From the NCBI RefSeq assembly GCF_030406325.1, contig NZ_JAUEQY010000002.1, positions 62,001 through 126,000 on the forward strand: a DNA stretch of 64,000 bases, read 5' to 3'. The notes under the pieces were generated by a model. It saw only the letters and a program-made list of their open reading frames with translations. It was not told the DNA's origin and made no database searches. This document shows, in pieces, positions 1,621 to 34,182 of the stretch. The DNA comes from Actinomadura sp. DC4. GTDB taxonomy: Bacteria > Actinomycetota > Actinomycetes > Streptosporangiales > Streptosporangiaceae. Made by a program: the position numbers and the translations under genes. The stretch's first letter is position 1. Every line of letters starts with the position of its first letter.

Positions 1621-4600
1621 TCAGCTCGTGAGTTGGGTCAGGTCGAGGATGACCTCGGAGGCCGTCACCGGGTCGAGGTCACCGAAGTGCGGCGGGTTCG
1701 CGTCGCGGACGCCCAGGCTGTCCGGATCGTCGGAGATCCAGATGGAGTCGAGCTGGTGCTCGGGGAAGATGTCGGGAGAGCCGATCGCGATGCCCGGGTC
1801 CAGGTGGATCACGATGAAGCGCTCCTCGCCGACCGCCCGCGAGATCACTCCCTGGATGCCGGCGTCCTGGGGGTCCTCACGCGACCAGCCGTGCCGCTCC
1901 AGCCCGATCACCTTGCCGGTCGGCACGGTGATGCCCTCGAACCGCGTGAGGCGACGGCCGGCCCGCTCCTCCTCGGTCAGCGCGAACACGGGGCGGCCGA
2001 GCTGCGGGAACGGCTGCAGGATCTCGTAGTCGGCGAACATCTCGGCCCACGCGTCGAGCACGCCGCCCAGTTCCAGCGGGTGCGCGAGGTGGATCCGCGC
2101 GCCGTCGGGCAGGGTCAGCGCCCGGTCCTCGACGTCCGCGAAACTGCGGTCCTCGGCGACGCGGAACGCCGTGCCGTCGCTCACCCAGACCAGCCGCCGT
2201 GCGACGTGCCAGGTCAGGGGATGGTGGACGAACAGGTCGGTGAACTCGGCGACCGACCAGTCGCGCCGCTCCACCATGGCCGCCTCCATCCGCCGGATCA
2301 GGTCCCGCGCGACCGTGCGGACGTCCTTCTTCAGGTCGGCGAACCGCTTGCGCGCCGCCGGCGCCTGCGTCGCGTCGTCACGCGCGCCGGGAGCGGGAAG
2401 GGCCTTGCGGCGCTTGCCGTCCTCATCCGAGATGTAGGGCTTGAGCTGCTCGTCGAACCCGACGATGAAGCGGCGCGGCCCGTAGTCCAGGGCCATGCTG
2501 CCCTCCTCGTCGAGCCCGAAGTCCGGGACGAGCCGGTCGGCGAGCTGTTCGCGGGTGAGTCCGAGGCCGTCGGCGACCTCGCGGATCTTCCAGCCCGCCC
2601 GCTCCTTGAGACCCTTGAACTTGACCCGCTGCGCGATGCCGTTGAGGTGCATCAGCGCGATCTCGGTGCCGATCTCGGCGAGCACGTCGAGACCGGCGAC
2701 CGCCTTGGAGTGACCGCCCTCGCCCGGCCAGGCGCGGATGACCGGCGTGAGCCGGCGTACGGTCTCGTCGTCGCCGATCGAGCCCAGGCCGGTGAGCGCC
2801 CAGCCGTCCTTGGCCGGCATGCCGCCGGCCTGCCACTGGCGGAACACCTCCCAGCCGAACTCCGCGAGCGACGCGCGGTCGCAGGTGTCCCGCACGATCG
2901 CCAGCCCGGCGTACTCCTCACCGGGCTTGGAGACGCTCAGCATGGCGAGGATGTGGCCCGCGGCCTCCGCCGGCAGCGCCCGCGTGCTGTCGGCGAGCAG
3001 TACCTGGGGCAGGCGGGCCGGCTCCACCCAGTCGCCGAGCTTGGGCATGCGGGCCGGAAGGCGCTCCAGCGGGTCGGCGGCGAGCTGTGCCGCGACGACC
3101 GCCGCGGCCTCGTCGCCGTACTCACGCGCGATCTCGATGACGGCCTCGCCGCCGTGCACCGAGGCGACGTGACGCAGCGCCGCCTCCGCGCCCGTACGCG
3201 GCGCGCCCACCGGGCCGACCGCGTCGGGCACCAGCAGCCGGACGGTCGCGACGCCGTGCCAGGCGAACCAGGTGGTCGCGGTCGCGCGCACGGACTTGAG
3301 CCGGGCGAGCCAGTCGGCCATCAGCCGGGCCACGCGGACGTCGTAGAAGGGGAGCAACAGCACGCCGACGACCGCCGGGTTGTCGACGGCGGCGATGTCG
3401 AGCACGACCGGCAGGGCGTCGAGCTCGAACCGGGCGACGACCGTTTTCATCCACATCTCACAACCCCAGAGGGGCGAGGGCCGCCAGCCGGAGACGATCG
3501 GGCGGGTGACCTCCTCCGGGGCGTTCGCAAAGAGGGCGATCTGCCGCATGGAGTCCATCTCGCGGGCGTGGTAGCGGCGGACGGCGGACGGCCAGTCGTC
3601 TTCGACCAGGTGGGAGTAGGTCGAGGCGCCCTTGGACCACTGCGCCCGGCTGCCCTCCGCCCACGTGACGGCGGGCTCGGCCGACGGCTCCAGGCCGGCG
3701 ATGACGACCGGTTTGGCGACCTTGCGGCGCCGGGTCCACGGCGGGGCGGCCAGGACGGGAGGCAGCGCGTCGGCGGAAGCCTCCTCCACCCGGTCCGTCT
3801 TGCCCGCCGTACGGGCGATCTCCTTGTGCAGTTGCTCGACCGTGCTCCGCACCTCCGGCGGGAGGCCGGGGAGCACGGCCGCGGTCAGCTCCGGGTTGGC
3901 CGCCACGTGGCCGATCAGGATCTCCCGCGCGAGCGGGGCGTGCTGCGAGGAGCCGCCGGCGGCCTGGGCCAGCAGCCGCAGCGCGCGTACGGGATAGCGC
4001 TTCGCCGCGTCGAGCACGCCGGGCTGGACGTGTTTTTGGTCGAGGTGGTCCACCATCAGCTGGAACGCCTCGTCGGTGGGGAGCCGGCCCAGCACGCTGA
4101 CCGCCACCTTGCGCTCCTCCGCCCAGGTGGCGGCGGCGTTGAAGGCTCCGTCCAGCAGGTCCACGACGTCGGTGCCGACGACCTCGATCAGCGTGGCGAG
4201 GACTCCGCGTGAGTATTGGCCGAACCCGAAGGACACCTTCGATCGGAGCGACGCGAGCTGTTCGGGCGAGCCGACGGAGCAGAACATCATCGTCCGCAGG
4301 GCCATCTCGTGCACACCGGTCGTGTCGGCGTGGCACTCGTCCACCCAGTCCATCTCGGTGGGCACCAGGTAGGACACGATCACGCGCTGCGCCGGAGTGC
4401 GCCGATGGTCGGCCAGCGCCTCGACGGCCGCACGGTAGTCGGCCTCGCCGGCGTCGGCGAGGAGGTGCCGCATCCGGTCCACCGTCGGCTGCCAGGCCCA
4501 CCGCCAGAAGGGGTGCTGACCGGTGGCGCGGGGGCGGAGGCGCCAGGCGCGCTGCCCCCGGTTCATTCCCGGCCACCACTCCTCGACGCCGACGGAGCCG

Positions 4601-22176: not shown

Positions 22177-22256
22177 CCCGAACGCGACCGACGGCCCGCG
22201 CGTCCCCCGGACCCACGGGCCGTCCGCGTTTCCGGATGCGGCACAATGGAGCGAGC

Positions 22257-22310
22257 AACAGGTGATGGGGCTCACCTCCGAACCGCGGGCGAACCGCTGA
22301 CGGCTCCTGG
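22257..22310 (+). promoter_or_regulatory. Fluoride riboswitch (crcB motif)
   Basis: The core GGTGATGGGGCTCACC, then AACCGC, a short stem and CGCTGACGGCTCCTG match the conserved crcB RNA elements (GATGG loop, AACCGC pseudoknot partner, GCTGA and GCTCCT). It sits 85 nt before a crcB-DUF190-crcB operon, the expected target, and should switch expression on when fluoride binds. Confidence 0.9.
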
Positions 22311-22330
22311 CCACTGGTCAGGAAGGTGCC

Positions 22331-22396
22331 ATGCCCGCACAGTGTTCTCCGCCGTGTGACGCCGCCACGACCACTCAGGACGAGAGGACGTCGTGA
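22331..22396 (+). CDS. Possible short leader reading frame between riboswitch and crcB
   Basis: ATG at 22331 with AGGAAGG 4 nt upstream opens a 21-codon frame ([19 protein letters not shown] then Thr-Ser) whose TGA shares its A with the crcB ATG at 22396 (TGATG). It could couple translation of crcB to riboswitch output, or be chance. No conservation data are available. Confidence 0.3.
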
Positions 22397-22905
22397 TGAC
22401 GCACGGCCCCATCGACCCCGACGCCGCCGTCGACCTCCACGCCGGCCAGGACGTCTTCCGTACGCGCGGGCCCGCCCGGCGCGATCGGCAGCTCGATGTC
22501 ATCGGCGCGATCGCCCTCGGCGGTGGGCTCGGGAGCGTGGCGCGCTATCTCCTGGCGACCGCCCTTCCTGCCCACCAGGGCCGCTTTCCCTGGGCCACCT
22601 TCCTGACCAACCTGAGCGGGTGCTTCGCCCTCGGCTTCCTCATGGTGTTCGTGCTGGAGGTCTGGCCGCCACGCCGCTACGTCCGGCCCTTCGTCGGCAT
22701 CGGGGTCCTCGGCGGGTTCACGACGTTCTCCACGTTCACCGTCGAGATGCGCGGCCTCGTCGCACACGGGTCCGGGGCGCTCGCCGACGCGTACGCGCTG
22801 AACAGTCTGGTCGGCGGTGTCGCGGCGGTATGGTGCGGCATCACGCTCGCCCGGCTCATCGGCCGGTTGCCCGTACGGCGAGGACGGGAAGGACGGAGCA
22901 CATGA
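22396..22905 (+). CDS. crcB: Fluoride ion channel CrcB/Fluc, first subunit
   Basis: A 169-residue Fluc-family protein: a ~40-residue N-terminal hydrophilic extension, then four membrane helices with the conserved [29 protein letters not shown] and [12 protein letters not shown] motifs. Fluc channels export fluoride as dual-topology dimers. The GTG at 22393 is an alternative start. It is the first gene behind a fluoride riboswitch and overlaps DUF190 by ATGA. Confidence 0.92.
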
Positions 22906-23258
22906 GGCTGCACGGTCGCGCACTCCGGCTGACGATCTTCATCGGCGACACCGACCAGCACCGCCACCGGCCGCTCTCCACCGAGATCGTCCACCGCGCG
23001 CACGAGCACGGGCTCGCGGGCGCCAGCGTCTTCCACGGCGTCGAGGGCTACGGCGCTTCGACCCGCATCCACACGAGCCGCATCCTGTCCCTCAGCGACG
23101 GCCTGCCCATCGCCATCGTGATCGTCGACACCGAAGACAAGATCAACGCCTTCCTTCCCGAGCTGGACGACCTGATCGACCGGGGGCTCGTGATGCTCGA
23201 CGACGTCGAGGTCTACCGGTACGCCGGCCGGGCGGAGGCGAAGGGCGGCCGGCCATGA
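22902..23258 (+). CDS. DUF190 domain protein
   Basis: A 118-residue soluble protein ([20 protein letters not shown]) of the DUF190 family, with the segments [20 protein letters not shown] and [20 protein letters not shown]. The fold resembles PII-like alpha/beta proteins. DUF190 genes commonly sit beside crcB; a role in sensing or modulating fluoride export is inferred, not shown. Start and stop overlap both crcB genes by ATGA. Confidence 0.88.
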
Positions 23259-32609: not shown

Positions 32610-32640
32610 GGGCTCCATAGCGGAAGACGTTCTTTCAGGG

Positions 32641-32715
32641 CACCTCCAGCAGGATTCGAACCCGCACTCGTCCCGGTTCGAAGCCGGGTGCTCTCTCCGA
32701 TTGAGCCATGGAGGC
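32641..32715 (-). tRNA. tRNA-Arg (anticodon TCG)
   Basis: Last tRNA of the array. Acceptor GCCTCCA/TGGAGGT with a G-T first pair, D-arm GCTC/GAGC, anticodon arm CCCGG-CTTCGAA-CCGGG, T-arm GCGGG-TTCGAAT-CCTGC, discriminator G, no encoded CCA. It reads CGA, a rare codon used twice in the upstream leader peptide. Confidence 0.93.
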
Positions 32716-32723
32716 CCGGTACG

Positions 32724-32805
32724 TGCATGGGGCAGGAGTCGAACCTGCACAGCGCGAAGCGGGCGGTTTACAGCCGCTTGGTCTCACCAGTGACCAGGCC
32801 CATGC
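32724..32805 (-). tRNA. tRNA-Tyr (anticodon GTA)
   Basis: Acceptor GCATGGG/CCCATGC, discriminator A, loop CTGTAAA, long variable arm as expected for bacterial Tyr, T-arm GCAGG-TTCGACT-CCTGC. An A-C mismatch stands at the base of the anticodon stem. Confidence 0.93.
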
Positions 32806-32810
32806 AAGAG

Positions 32811-32882
32811 GGTGATCAGGGGGATTCGAACCCACCACCGCCGGGACCACGACCCGGTGTGCTGCCGTTACACCATGAACAC
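32811..32882 (-). tRNA. tRNA-His (anticodon GTG), C33 variant
   Basis: Acceptor GTGTTCA/TGATCAC (one T-T mismatch), G at -1 and C discriminator as in His tRNAs. Anticodon arm CCGGG-TCGTGGT-CCCGG puts C instead of U at position 33. The T-stem has one T-C mismatch. Confidence 0.88.
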
Positions 32883-32908
32883 CATGACGTCCCTGTCCAG
32901 GGACGCGG

Positions 32909-32980
32909 TCGACCGAGCAGGAGTCGAACCTGCCACGCGCGCCTTGTAAGGGCACCGCTCTGCCGATGAGCTACCGGTCG
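32909..32980 (-). tRNA. tRNA-Val (anticodon TAC)
   Basis: Acceptor CGACCGG/TCGGTCG, discriminator A, D-arm GCTC/GAGC, anticodon arm GTGCC-CTTACAA-GGCGC, T-arm GCAGG-TTCGACT-CCTGC. Complete cloverleaf without CCA. Confidence 0.93.
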
Positions 32981-32985
32981 TGACG

Positions 32986-33058
32986 CACCCCCGGCCGGAG
33001 TCGAACCGGCGACCACCTGCTTCGGACGCAGGCACTCTGTCCACTGAGCTACGAGGGC
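32986..33058 (-). tRNA. tRNA-Arg (anticodon CCG)
   Basis: Acceptor GCCCTCG/CGGGGGT with a G-T first pair, discriminator G, anticodon arm CCTGC-GTCCGAA-GCAGG, T-arm GCCGG-TTCGACT-CCGGC. Reads CGG. Confidence 0.93.
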
Positions 33059-33063
33059 GACGG

Positions 33064-33133
33064 CTCCGGCGGCTGGGCTCGAACCAGCATGACGCGGGTA
33101 ACAACCGCGCATCCTGCCTTGGATCACACCGGA
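33064..33133 (-). tRNA. tRNA-Asn (anticodon GTT)
   Basis: Acceptor TCCGGTG/CGCCGGA, discriminator G, short D-arm ATCC/GGAT, anticodon arm CGCGG-TTGTTAC-CCGCG, T-arm GCTGG-TTCGAGC-CCAGC. Compact (70 nt). Confidence 0.92.
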
Positions 33134-33163
33134 AGGAGTGGTGTCGGACCACACGGGAACAAG

Positions 33164-33239
33164 TGGCGCAGGTGGGATTCGAACCCACGATCTTCAGCGT
33201 ATGAAACTGACGGGGACGGCCGAGCTCCCCTACTGCGCT
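33164..33239 (-). tRNA. tRNA-Met (anticodon CAT)
   Basis: Acceptor AGCGCAG/CTGCGCC with an unpaired A1-C72, D-stem GGGG/CCCC, anticodon arm TCAGT-TTCATAC-GCTGA, T-arm GTGGG-TTCGAAT-CCCAC. A 1-72 mismatch is an initiator-like trait, but the anticodon stem lacks the three G-C pairs of initiators, so elongator Met is more likely. Confidence 0.9.
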
Positions 33240-33248
33240 TCGCGTACG

Positions 33249-33320
33249 TAGCCCCTGCGGGACTTGAACCCGCTTCTCGAGGTTGAGGGCCTCGTGACCT
33301 AACCCGTGGTCGAAGGGGCC
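33249..33320 (-). tRNA. tRNA-Glu (anticodon CTC), C33 variant
   Basis: Acceptor GGCCCCT/AGGGGCT, D-stem GACC/GGTC, anticodon arm CGAGG-CCCTCAA-CCTCG with C at position 33, T-arm GCGGG-TTCAAGT-CCCGC, discriminator A. Confidence 0.9.
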
Positions 33321-33338
33321 TTACAAAAACCGACGTGG

Positions 33339-33424
33339 CGGAAGGTGAGGGATTCGAACCCTCGCAGGTGTGACCCTGGCCTCCGTTTTCGAAACGGGCG
33401 CGATACCGGTTCCGCCAACCTTCC
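33339..33424 (-). tRNA. tRNA-Ser (anticodon CGA)
   Basis: Acceptor GGAAGGT/ACCTTCC, discriminator G, loop TTCGAAA, long variable arm as expected for Ser, T-arm GAGGG-TTCGAAT-CCCTC. Reads TCG, present in the leader peptide. Confidence 0.93.
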
Positions 33425-33431
33425 AACACCG

Positions 33432-33505
33432 TGCCGCCCCAGGGATTCGAACCCTGAACCTCCCGGTCCTGAACCGGACGCCTCTGCCAGTTGGGCCAGA
33501 GCGGC
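33432..33505 (-). tRNA. Class I tRNA with Leu anticodon CAG
   Basis: Acceptor GCCGCTC/GGGCGGC, discriminator A, anticodon arm TCCGG-TTCAGGA-CCGGG, variable loop only AGGTT, T-arm CAGGG-TTCGAAT-CCCTG. The anticodon predicts Leu (CTG), yet bacterial Leu tRNAs carry a long variable arm. Identity is therefore open; closely related to the next tRNA (GAG). Confidence 0.85.
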
Positions 33506-33513
33506 GAGAAAAG

Positions 33514-33586
33514 TACGCTCGGCGGGACTCGAACCCGCACCTCCGGCTCCTCGGGCCGGTGCCTCTGCCGATTGGGCCACGAGCGC
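33514..33586 (-). tRNA. Class I tRNA with Leu anticodon GAG, C33 variant
   Basis: Acceptor GCGCTCG/CGAGCGT, discriminator A, anticodon arm CCGGC-CCGAGGA-GCCGG with C33, short variable loop AGGT, T-arm GCGGG-TTCGAGT-CCCGC. Predicted to read CTC/CTT, both used in the leader peptide. Lacks the class II arm expected of Leu. Confidence 0.85.
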
Positions 33587-33592
33587 GTGAAG

Positions 33593-33656
33593 AGCCGCCA
33601 CCCGGTGCCGACCCGGGCCACCCATCTGCGATGGTCACCAAGCCGTGTGCGGCGGC
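33593..33656 (-). ncRNA. 64-nt tRNA-like element or degenerate tRNA
   Basis: Acceptor-like arms GCCGCCG/TGGCGGC, a small CAC/GTG D-like stem, a central hairpin near CCATC and GGTGG, and a T-like arm CCCGG-GTCGGCA-CCGGG. The T-loop lacks the TTC signature and the variable loop is absent. If folded as tRNA the anticodon would be AGA (Ser). It lies at regular spacing inside the array, so it is either a decayed tRNA or a processed tRNA-like RNA. Confidence 0.5.
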
Positions 33657-33660
33657 GCAG

Positions 33661-33732
33661 CTCCCTGGCAAGGATTCGAACCTCGATCGTGCGGTCCAGA
33701 GCCGCGTGTCCTGCCGGTTGGACGACCAGGGA
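33661..33732 (-). tRNA. tRNA-Gln (anticodon CTG)
   Basis: Acceptor TCCCTGG/CCAGGGA, discriminator G, D-stem GTCC/GGAC, loop CTCTGGA, T-arm CGAGG-TTCGAAT-CCTTG. T1-A72 and G73 suit Gln identity. Confidence 0.93.
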
Positions 33733-33737
33733 ATGCG

Positions 33738-33810
33738 CACCTCCGCCAGGACTCGAACCTGGGGCCTCCCGCTCCGCAAGCGGGCGCTCTCTCCACTGAG
33801 CTACAGAGGC
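33738..33810 (-). tRNA. tRNA-Arg (anticodon GCG)
   Basis: Acceptor GCCTCTG/CGGAGGT, discriminator G, D-arm GCTC/GAGC, anticodon arm CCCGC-TTGCGGA-GCGGG, T-arm CCAGG-TTCGAGT-CCTGG. Bacteria normally read CGC/CGT with an inosine-modified ACG tRNA; a GCG anticodon does it without the TadA deaminase. Confidence 0.92.
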
Positions 33811-33894
33811 AGGGCGCGACGCAAAAAGCGCCGCGCGAAAACAAACGTCTTCCACTGTGGAGTTGTCAAAAAGCACGCGCCCCGAAAAGGGAAG

Positions 33895-33966
33895 CATGGG
33901 CGGTAGGAGTCGAACCCACTTTTCGCCGGACTTGGAAACCGGCCGCCTACCCGTTGGCTCGCCCAC
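33895..33966 (-). tRNA. tRNA-Trp (anticodon CCA)
   Basis: First tRNA of the array, 5 nt after the attenuator-like hairpin. Acceptor GTGGGCG/CGCCCAT, discriminator G, loop TTCCAAG closed by a T-T mismatch, T-arm GTGGG-TTCGACT-CCTAC. Separated by 84 bp from the next tRNA, Arg-GCG. Confidence 0.9.
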
Positions 33967-33971
33967 AAGAA

Positions 33972-34005
33972 AGGCCGCTCCGGGACGATGTCCTCAGAGC
34001 GGCCT
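33972..34005 (-). terminator. Attenuator-like terminator in the tRNA-array leader
   Basis: On the minus strand AGGCCGCTC (34005-33997) pairs perfectly with GAGCGGCCT (33980-33972); the loop has an extra GGAC/GTCC stem; TTCTT follows. It begins 19 nt after the leader stop codon and ends 5 nt before tRNA-Trp, so termination here would silence the whole array. GGCCTC in the last leader codons (34037-34032) can pair with GAGGCC (34006-34001), an alternative fold that breaks the first arm. Confidence 0.75.
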
Positions 34006-34024
34006 CCCGACCAGGCGTACAGCC

Positions 34025-34099
34025 CTAACCAGAGGCCCCCATAAGGAGGACGGAATGCAGCTCATATCGCTGCGACGTAAGCCATCGTTCGGTATTCAC
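34025..34099 (-). CDS. 24-residue leader peptide of the tRNA array
   Basis: GTG start at 34099 with GGAGG 7 nt upstream; stop TAG at 34027-34025. After the start the peptide reads NTERWLTSQRYELHSVLLM and ends Gly-Ala-Ser-Gly. Every amino acid carried by the array (Trp, Arg, Gln, Leu, Ser, Glu, Met, Asn, Val, His, Tyr) occurs in these 19 residues; the only other type is Thr, twice. Fourteen codons match array anticodons directly, including the uncommon AAT, CGA (twice), CTT (twice), TAT and CAT. It lies between a promoter and a terminator hairpin. The design is that of a ribosome-stalling attenuation leader. Translation is unproven. Confidence 0.75.
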   Translation of the reverse strand: MNTERWLTSQRYELHSVLLMGASG

Positions 34100-34134
34100 C
34101 GGTCCGCCTCCTTCTCCCCTGATGTCTTGCCTCT

Positions 34135-34162
34135 ATCTTAAGCACCCTCGACAGAAGGGCAA
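34135..34162 (-). promoter_or_regulatory. Promoter of the tRNA-array leader
   Basis: Minus strand -35 TTGCCC (34162-34157), 16-bp spacer, -10 TAAGAT (34140-34135). The predicted start near 34128 leaves about 28 nt before the leader GTG, including its AAGGAGG. It is the only good sigma-70-type promoter seen ahead of the array. Confidence 0.6.
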
Positions 34163-34182
34163 CATATTTAATGAGACGCCGA

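Follow-up and report, generated by a model that had tools for sequence, protein, structure and literature searches.

A candidate ribosome-mediated attenuator through which a backup tRNA operon would poll the tRNAs it encodes

A backup tRNA operon of Actinomadura sp. DC4 is, with high probability, governed by a ribosome-mediated transcription attenuator that polls the very tRNAs the operon encodes. The operon lies in the window, the whole 64,000-nucleotide stretch of DNA analysed here, where the minus strand presents in order a promoter, a Shine-Dalgarno sequence (SD), a frame of 24 codons, a hairpin that is rich in GC and ends in a T-rich tail, and a series of tRNA genes. Census leaders of this type probably carry a readable copy of the tRNA inventory, at the level of the amino acid and partly of the codon, which is kept in step with tRNA gains and losses, and the loss of any replaceable tRNA would switch on the whole set. 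This broader reading seems likely to hold in Streptosporangiales, Micrococcales and Pseudomonas at least, with leaders in Streptosporangiaceae combined with a WblC-type promoter and, in many cases, with an antitermination site of rrn-like kind.

Layout of the window locus and its tRNA array

The positions originally proposed for the leader, the terminator and the tRNA array were all borne out by the minus strand of the window. The features are as follows.

34135..34171, minus: predicted WblC/WhiB7-type promoter, from the sequence and the published motif
34171-34166, minus: promoter box TTAAAT, 4/6 to GAAAWY, 3 nt before the -35
34162-34157, minus: -35 element TTGCCC, with a 16 nt spacer to the -10
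34140-34135, minus: -10 element TAAGAT
34107..34113, minus: Shine-Dalgarno sequence AAGGAGG
34025..34099, minus: predicted polling leader peptide, GTG...TAG, 24 codons plus TAG, VNTERWLTSQRYELHSVLLMGASG followed by the stop; homologous leaders in G006, G003 and G004
34029..34036, minus: region 2, the antiterminator 5' strand GCCTCTGG, within the last codons of the leader (alignment A2, covariation)
34002..34009, minus: region 3, the antiterminator 3' strand CGGGAGGC, with bases common to the terminator 5' arm (alignment A2, covariation)
33967..34004, minus: predicted intrinsic terminator (sequence, covariation, fold, model R2)
34004-33997 and 33980-33973, minus: terminator arms GGCCGCTC and GAGCGGCC, with the tail TTTCTT at 33972-33967
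33895..33966, minus: tRNA-Trp (CCA), first gene of the array
33853..33870, minus: rrn-boxA-like element TTTGACAACTCCACAGTG, a candidate Nus-dependent antitermination site, 17/18 to a consensus from such loci
32639..33810, minus: 13 more tRNA genes (ARAGORN and homologous arrays)

A plain sigma-70-like consensus scan of the stretch gave no match at the window promoter, and a simple consensus terminator scan missed the terminator because its loop limit is 8 and the hairpin loop is longer. The covariance model R2, described below, matches the window at E = 3.5e-9, with the window being one of its 31 training rows. At gathering score, Rfam gave no match over the window attenuator and no T-box in the window. 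Elsewhere in the window, a fluoride riboswitch aptamer at 22252-22316 (+, 38.4 bits) lies just 5' of a frame at 22326-23258.

ARAGORN called 13 tRNAs in the array and did not call tRNA-Trp, which scores 28.8 bits against an Rfam cut-off of 29; its homologue in genome G006 is called as Trp(cca). After Trp, the order is R(gcg) Q(ctg) L(gag) L(cag) S(cga) E(ctc) M(cat) N(gtt) R(ccg) V(tac) H(gtg) Y(gta) R(tcg), where the gene at 32907-32980, 'Cys(aca)' according to ARAGORN, is most probably Val(tac), the call given to its counterpart in the homologous G003 array. Corrected for Trp and Val, the amino acids of the array are exactly W, R, Q, L, S, E, M, N, V, H and Y. With 14 tRNAs in 1.3 kb, it is a dense, supernumerary block and hence an L-array. 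The genome has 51 other tRNAs, among which some ARAGORN calls look spurious, and only R(gcg) and R(tcg) of the array lack a same-anticodon copy there. As these other tRNAs appear to cover the code, the array can be regarded as a spare.

Some further observations concern the tRNAs themselves. Between tRNA-Gln and tRNA-Leu(gag), a tRNA-like stretch at 33587-33659 (-) is called by neither ARAGORN nor Rfam; gaps of similar length (about 76-78 bases) occupy the same place in the G006 and G003 arrays, and the stretch is possibly a degenerate or unusual tRNA-Pro. The same genome (G000) carries a second attenuated array (L143, contig C48), with the leader VAKTLVSKAYGGPCPVDGTGVSAETSG and tRNAs Ala(cgc), Pro(cgg) and Gly(tcc). 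Position 33 of the array tRNAs in the 79 loci introduced below holds C (44) or G (1) in place of U in 45 of 464 cases, against 1 of 51 for the other tRNAs of this genome; C for U at this position was considered as a form of nuclease evasion.

The composition of the window leader mirrors this array. The original prediction held that residues 2-20 contain all 11 array amino acids with only Thr extra, which is correct once the Trp and Val assignments are amended. When residues are drawn from the coding composition of the window, the chance that 19 residues hold all 11 is P = 5.5e-5, and 17 of the 19 core residues fall within the array set (P = 4e-4). Rarely used codons, also part of that prediction, are indeed frequent, as 8 of the 19 codons have a share below 15% of their amino acid, against 8% expected.

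Leaders and arrays in related and distant genomes

A blastn search of 100 related genomes located homologous leaders in G006, G003 and G004, all of the same genus, with partial matches elsewhere, including G057 and G048. A covariance model of the leader end, hairpins and tRNA-Trp (R1), run on 341 genomes of the family, proved unspecific, with 338 of them matching at E<=1e-4, probably mostly through ordinary tRNA-Trp. Matches were therefore taken mainly by score, 80 being fetched in this way, and then sorted by eye. Alignment A2 holds 31 attenuators picked by eye, namely 25 from among these 80 matches, five previously identified loci and the window itself, and its rows yielded a second covariance model, R2, which includes no tRNA. 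Searching with R2 at E<=0.001 turned up 90 matches, spread over 79 of the 341 genomes. Among the 59 matches outside the training set, tRNAs follow in 57, the exceptions being L205 and L220. We kept 79 of the 90 loci (68 genomes), each with an SD-preceded frame at the conserved stop and with tRNAs. The 11 dropped loci comprise nine that lack such a frame, among them L220, which also lacks tRNAs, and L032, which is cut by a contig end, and two that lack tRNAs (L205 and L035). Named carriers include Actinomadura and Nonomuraea, and one is a 198,862-base plasmid of Nonomuraea sp. NBC_00507.

Among 394 genomes drawn from the class, seven match, every one in the same family. In genus g38 (e.g. L079-L124), Trp-Ala-Ser tRNA clusters with a similar tRNA-Trp occur in many genomes, and no such leader attenuator was seen with them. 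A consensus DNA pattern found no match in a set of viral contigs, and distant blastn of the array against phages covered at most 9% of the query among the best 20 of 203 records. In G004, the leader and terminator are kept with no tRNAs within 8 kb (L035). This orphan leader, MSATLSLTSRDARRESFAALLGTPG, has no N, W, Q, Y, H or V codons, and its regions 2 and 3 pair at 4 of 8 positions. It is possible that L035 and L205 (G226), both leader-terminator units without tRNAs, are relics of lost arrays.

Short frames are common in GC-rich DNA, and the leader could be imagined as a fortuitous frame or a small functional protein, with a hairpin that merely ends upstream transcription. We give this explanation almost no weight, as the stop position, SD, region 2 and antiterminator pairing are conserved in dozens of loci, the leaders differ in sequence yet match their arrays, and the orphan without tRNAs lacks the six kinds of codon and half of the antiterminator pairs. 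An SD-led predicted leader frame in 79 of the 90 loci, with tRNAs, and leader codons specific for the product of the operon are features of an attenuator.

Leaders were compared with their arrays after excluding the start codon and the last four codons. Every amino acid of the array is present in its own leader in 71 of 79 loci; among the eight leaders that miss some are the ones in front of the largest arrays, of 28 and 31 tRNAs, each leader falling short by four amino acids. Kinship was controlled by taking one locus per leader cluster and permuting arrays among clusters. At 50% (21 clusters), coverage was 0.941 against 0.684+-0.042 permuted and precision 0.638 against 0.443+-0.024, with 0 of 4000 permutations as good for either; at 60% (42 clusters), coverage was 0.968 against 0.695+-0.029, again with 0/4000. 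Single linkage at 40% merges 76 of the 79 loci and leaves four clusters, where 658/4000 and 833/4000 permutations are as good. Coverage also depends on the reading frame, being 0.983 in frame 0, 0.617 in +1 and 0.681 in +2. The anticipated check that homologous arrays keep a leader of matching content was thus passed, also by leaders of other sequence in Micrococcales and Pseudomonas.

The match extends in part to codons. A readable leader codon exists for 395 of the 464 array anticodons (distinct per locus), against 0.545 expected, and the choice of codon leans modestly towards the array anticodons over and above amino acid identity (720/1079 = 0.667 against 0.631+-0.008; 0/5000). On average, 43% of leader residues are amino acids that the array does not serve. 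In 27 independent pairs sharing at least 50% identity, 22 differences between leaders go the same way as the arrays and none goes the opposite way, while the amino acid is in both leaders 63 times and in neither four times. At 60% or more (17 pairs) the corresponding counts are 3, 0, 35 and 0, and at 70% or more (10 pairs) 0, 0, 20 and 0. These contrasts fade as kinship rises, and leaders therefore lag behind tRNA loss. Individual loci illustrate the correspondence: the G303 array serves A, P, F, R, G, K, Q, I and V and its leader is MIGTTIVKQVLQPRGIPFAARPQRGIAVPRGATG; the G016 array serves L, M and R and its leader is VKFETIMRRRMRRILLMPRQASG; and in G330, Gly is absent from array and leader alike.

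Ribosome stalling needs only a low level of charged tRNA, which amino acid starvation causes too. A starvation sensor like those of biosynthesis operons, with the tRNA array merely happening to lie downstream, would belong to the same mechanism class. We consider it highly improbable, as the leaders require as many as 20 amino acids at a time and agree with the array locus by locus, codon choice tracks array anticodons beyond amino acid identity, and more tRNA would not be expected to relieve a lack of amino acid. For an operon that polls its own tRNAs, replacement on demand is the best reading.

Leaders of this type also occur outside the family. We examined 15 plasmid records with arrays from other families and found such a leader in 10, nine of them clear; two of the 10 (zg-Y1110 and pBASL58) were found through the leader itself. 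Four Arthrobacter-type leaders have 50-52 residues and 19 or 20 amino acid types, with readable anticodons in 35/37, 34/37, 31/33 and 33/35 cases against a null of about 24-27; coding stretches reached these values in 0/480, 0/300, 1/540 and 1/450 cases. In Arthrobacter caoxuetaonis, Cys is in neither array nor leader, and in its relative zg-Y1110 it is in both. Three Curtobacterium leaders of 42-43 residues contain 20 types (P about 5e-4 to 6e-4 each), and their arrays, in the stretches fetched, cover 20, 19 and 18 amino acids. A scripted terminator search returned nothing ahead of the Curtobacterium arrays, though in L334 one can see a long GC hairpin that ends in TTCT.

Two Pseudomonas leaders hold 12/12 and 13/13 array amino acids and 3/8 and 2/7 of the others (Fisher 0.0036 and 0.0014). 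Like their arrays as called by ARAGORN, they lack D, E, L, P and internal M. On pMPPla107, no clear SD precedes the leader. The Polaromonas case is weak, its leader having 20 types (P = 0.08 in the long form, 0.012 in the short form) and its array as called serving 15. On a Miltoncostaea oceani plasmid (L321), a TTG-start frame at 2913-3110 precedes a strong hairpin and T run and covers 5/5 array amino acids (P = 0.03 and 0.07); the frame is Arg- and Pro-rich, and Arg and Pro tRNAs abound in the array below, but the case is statistically weak. The Tsukamurella, M. alvei, B. breve and Variovorax arrays showed no leader of this type, the last being represented by a broken array only. A Neorhizobium match was dropped as it has no tRNAs, and DR48 as it has one.

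Certain neighbouring genes were noted in passing. In G009, the attenuator-like match L220, for which no tRNAs and no SD-led leader were found, lies 130 bases before an RNA ligase-like frame, which from its sequence we take to be RtcB-like. RNA ligase genes are also annotated in or near the Curtobacterium and B. breve arrays; these neighbours fit tRNA damage, which is only suggestive. The attenuator-like locus L126 (G251), with tRNAs, is near a frame whose sequence presumably resembles peptidyl-tRNA hydrolase, and an annotated peptidyl-tRNA hydrolase is near the tRNAs of the Variovorax plasmid L337.

The predicted switch and its promoter

The geometry of the locus, in covariation and position profile, supports the originally predicted attenuator. 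In alignment A2, the strand within the last codons pairs with the strand just 5' of the terminator in 87.4% of cells, and the pairing falls to 29-55% when slid by one to three columns. Doubly changed cells number 33 against 12.8 in shuffled alignments (0/500); antiterminator pairs changed on both sides (5 against 4.0; 155/500) and pair types (12 against 11.1; 159/500) are not above shuffles. The terminator is paired in 98.6% of cells, with 17 doubly changed against 4.4 shuffled. The two helices share columns 40-42 and are mutually exclusive, and variants such as GCC, GTT and GTC recur in region 2 and the terminator 3' arm alike. The eye-picked rows of A2, and the weak antiterminator already held in R1, may favour the antiterminator structure. 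Among the 59 non-training loci, regions 2 and 3 of the same locus pair at 6.98 of 8 positions against 6.67+-0.06 when swapped (0/5000), R2 itself containing that helix.

Array residues are over-represented from far upstream down to about codon -6; at -5 the surplus is slight (0.59 against 0.50), and from -4 to -1 there is none, as expected if a ribosome there hides region 2. Partial folds of the window RNA up to the terminator 5' arm form the antiterminator with P=1.00 for stalls at codons 1-16 and 0.83 at codon 17, and with about 0 from codon 18 to the stop. In these models, a terminating ribosome would mask region 2 and a stalled one would expose it. At full equilibrium, the terminator prevails at every stall site (P 0.85-1.00), and the switch would therefore have to be kinetic, with the order of synthesis deciding. 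A candidate 5' strand that would pair with region 2 absent translation, located between the -10 and the likely start, was rejected; it is not kept in G006 and G003.

The upstream sequences of the loci have in common an AT-rich box that precedes a TKGM -35 by three bases. The published WblC motif consists of GAAAWY, 3 nt, TKGMNN, a spacer of 16-19 and TANNNT, and the same paper also places six tRNA genes among WblC-controlled RNAs (PMC7157823). Judged by sequence, most of our promoters fit this WblC/WhiB7 motif: 64 of 79 loci, the window included, score at least 11/13 over box, -35 and -10, against 1.9% of random stretches of the same loci, and the window promoter itself scores 11/13. The genome encodes WhiB7 (EPW and RGRP motifs, L313), away from the array. 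The promoter of its whiB7 leader is similar, and the leader frame, of 81 codons, closes with an antiterminator strand and is followed by a GGCCGCGG terminator. Attenuation of whiB7 through a uORF has been described (PMC10727445, PMC11550727).

A boxA-like element scoring at least 14/18 follows the attenuator in 28 of 79 loci and occurs in no sampled background stretch, its consensus being taken from these loci; an earlier, stricter boxA pattern occurs in 8 of 79. In three family genomes, the 16S leader contains TTCTTGAGAACTCAACAG(C/T)G, which resembles the element, and 16S was not found in the window's own genome assembly. We regard the rrn-like element after the attenuator as a candidate boxA.

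Together, these elements suggest the following sequence of events. A transcript would start at the WblC-type promoter, and a ribosome would translate a short leader made of array-served amino acids and, in part, array-served codons. With all charged tRNAs at hand, it would reach the stop and cover region 2, and the terminator would form before tRNA-Trp. Should one charged tRNA be short, the ribosome would wait upstream, leaving region 2 to pair with region 3 once both are made; this pairing would take the base of the terminator stem, and the polymerase would read on. The boxA-like site may then protect the untranslated transcript. We infer leader translation, termination and read-through in vivo, and a shortage of charged tRNA as the signal. 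Its cause may lie in translation-targeting drugs, tRNA nucleases or synthetase inhibition, of which the drugs fit the promoter and the nucleases fit the specificity. The promoters point first to the WblC/WhiB7 translation-stress response, and ribosome-targeting drugs are therefore at least as likely a trigger as tRNA-cleaving toxins or phage.

These promoters also raise the alternative of a general translation-stress attenuator of the whiB7 type, in which any stalled ribosome, for example under an antibiotic, opens the array and leader composition, rather than being a specific poll, results from the frame being short and translated. The whiB7 leader of this genome shares both the promoter type and the layout of uORF, antiterminator and terminator, and the Anabaena tRNA operon is described as induced by translation-targeting antibiotics (PMC10272220). 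Such an attenuator does not predict that a leader tracks its individual array, as it does in the permutation, frame and paired tests, nor that Cys is in neither or both in Arthrobacter-type loci and D, E, L, P and internal M are absent in Pseudomonas. We thus consider it improbable and retain the polling attenuator as the preferred reading.

Relation to known systems

Although long tRNA arrays were described years ago, their use has not been clear; a leader that lists the tRNAs of its own array indicates a purpose, the replacement of specific tRNAs when these are in short supply. Inducing conditions would be predictable from sequence alone. The leader would represent a natural many-input OR gate in RNA and a natural sensor of tRNA damage by toxins, phages and drugs.

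The arrays resemble other L-arrays, such as the Anabaena trn operon and mycobacterial arrays, in being long blocks of supernumerary tRNA genes that are often plasmid-borne. A 2021 NAR paper is said to treat L-arrays. Control of the Anabaena trn operon is ascribed to a repressor, TrcR, and the sections of that paper's main text covered here contain none of 'leader', 'attenuat' and 'terminator' (PMC10272220); 'promoter', 'terminator' and 'leader' do not occur in the corresponding sections of the mycobacterial array survey (PMC5966550). In searches of an open library of papers, we recognised none that treats leader peptides or attenuators of tRNA arrays. The T-box riboswitch similarly reads tRNA charging to control termination, but there the RNA binds the tRNA directly, whereas here the sensor would be a translating ribosome. 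To our knowledge, ribosome-mediated attenuation has not been demonstrated for any tRNA operon.

Attenuators of the trp/his type share with these loci a short SD-led leader with operon-specific codons, a stop codon adjoining region 2 and an exclusive antiterminator and terminator. In contrast, the output here is tRNA, the test extends to as many as 20 amino acids at once, each leader follows the content of its array, and the loci bring a WblC-type promoter and a boxA-like site. The whiB7/wblC uORF attenuator, found in the same genome, is alike in its WblC-type promoter, a uORF ending in the antiterminator strand and an overlapping GC-rich terminator. However, members of that class control a WhiB7/WblC regulator gene, whereas the output here is tRNA genes; the whiB7 leader is an 81-codon frame, whereas here short, tailored frames precede tRNA arrays. 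The mechanism class is thus known from trp and whiB7, and we provisionally regard its tRNA target and the polling of many tRNAs as new.
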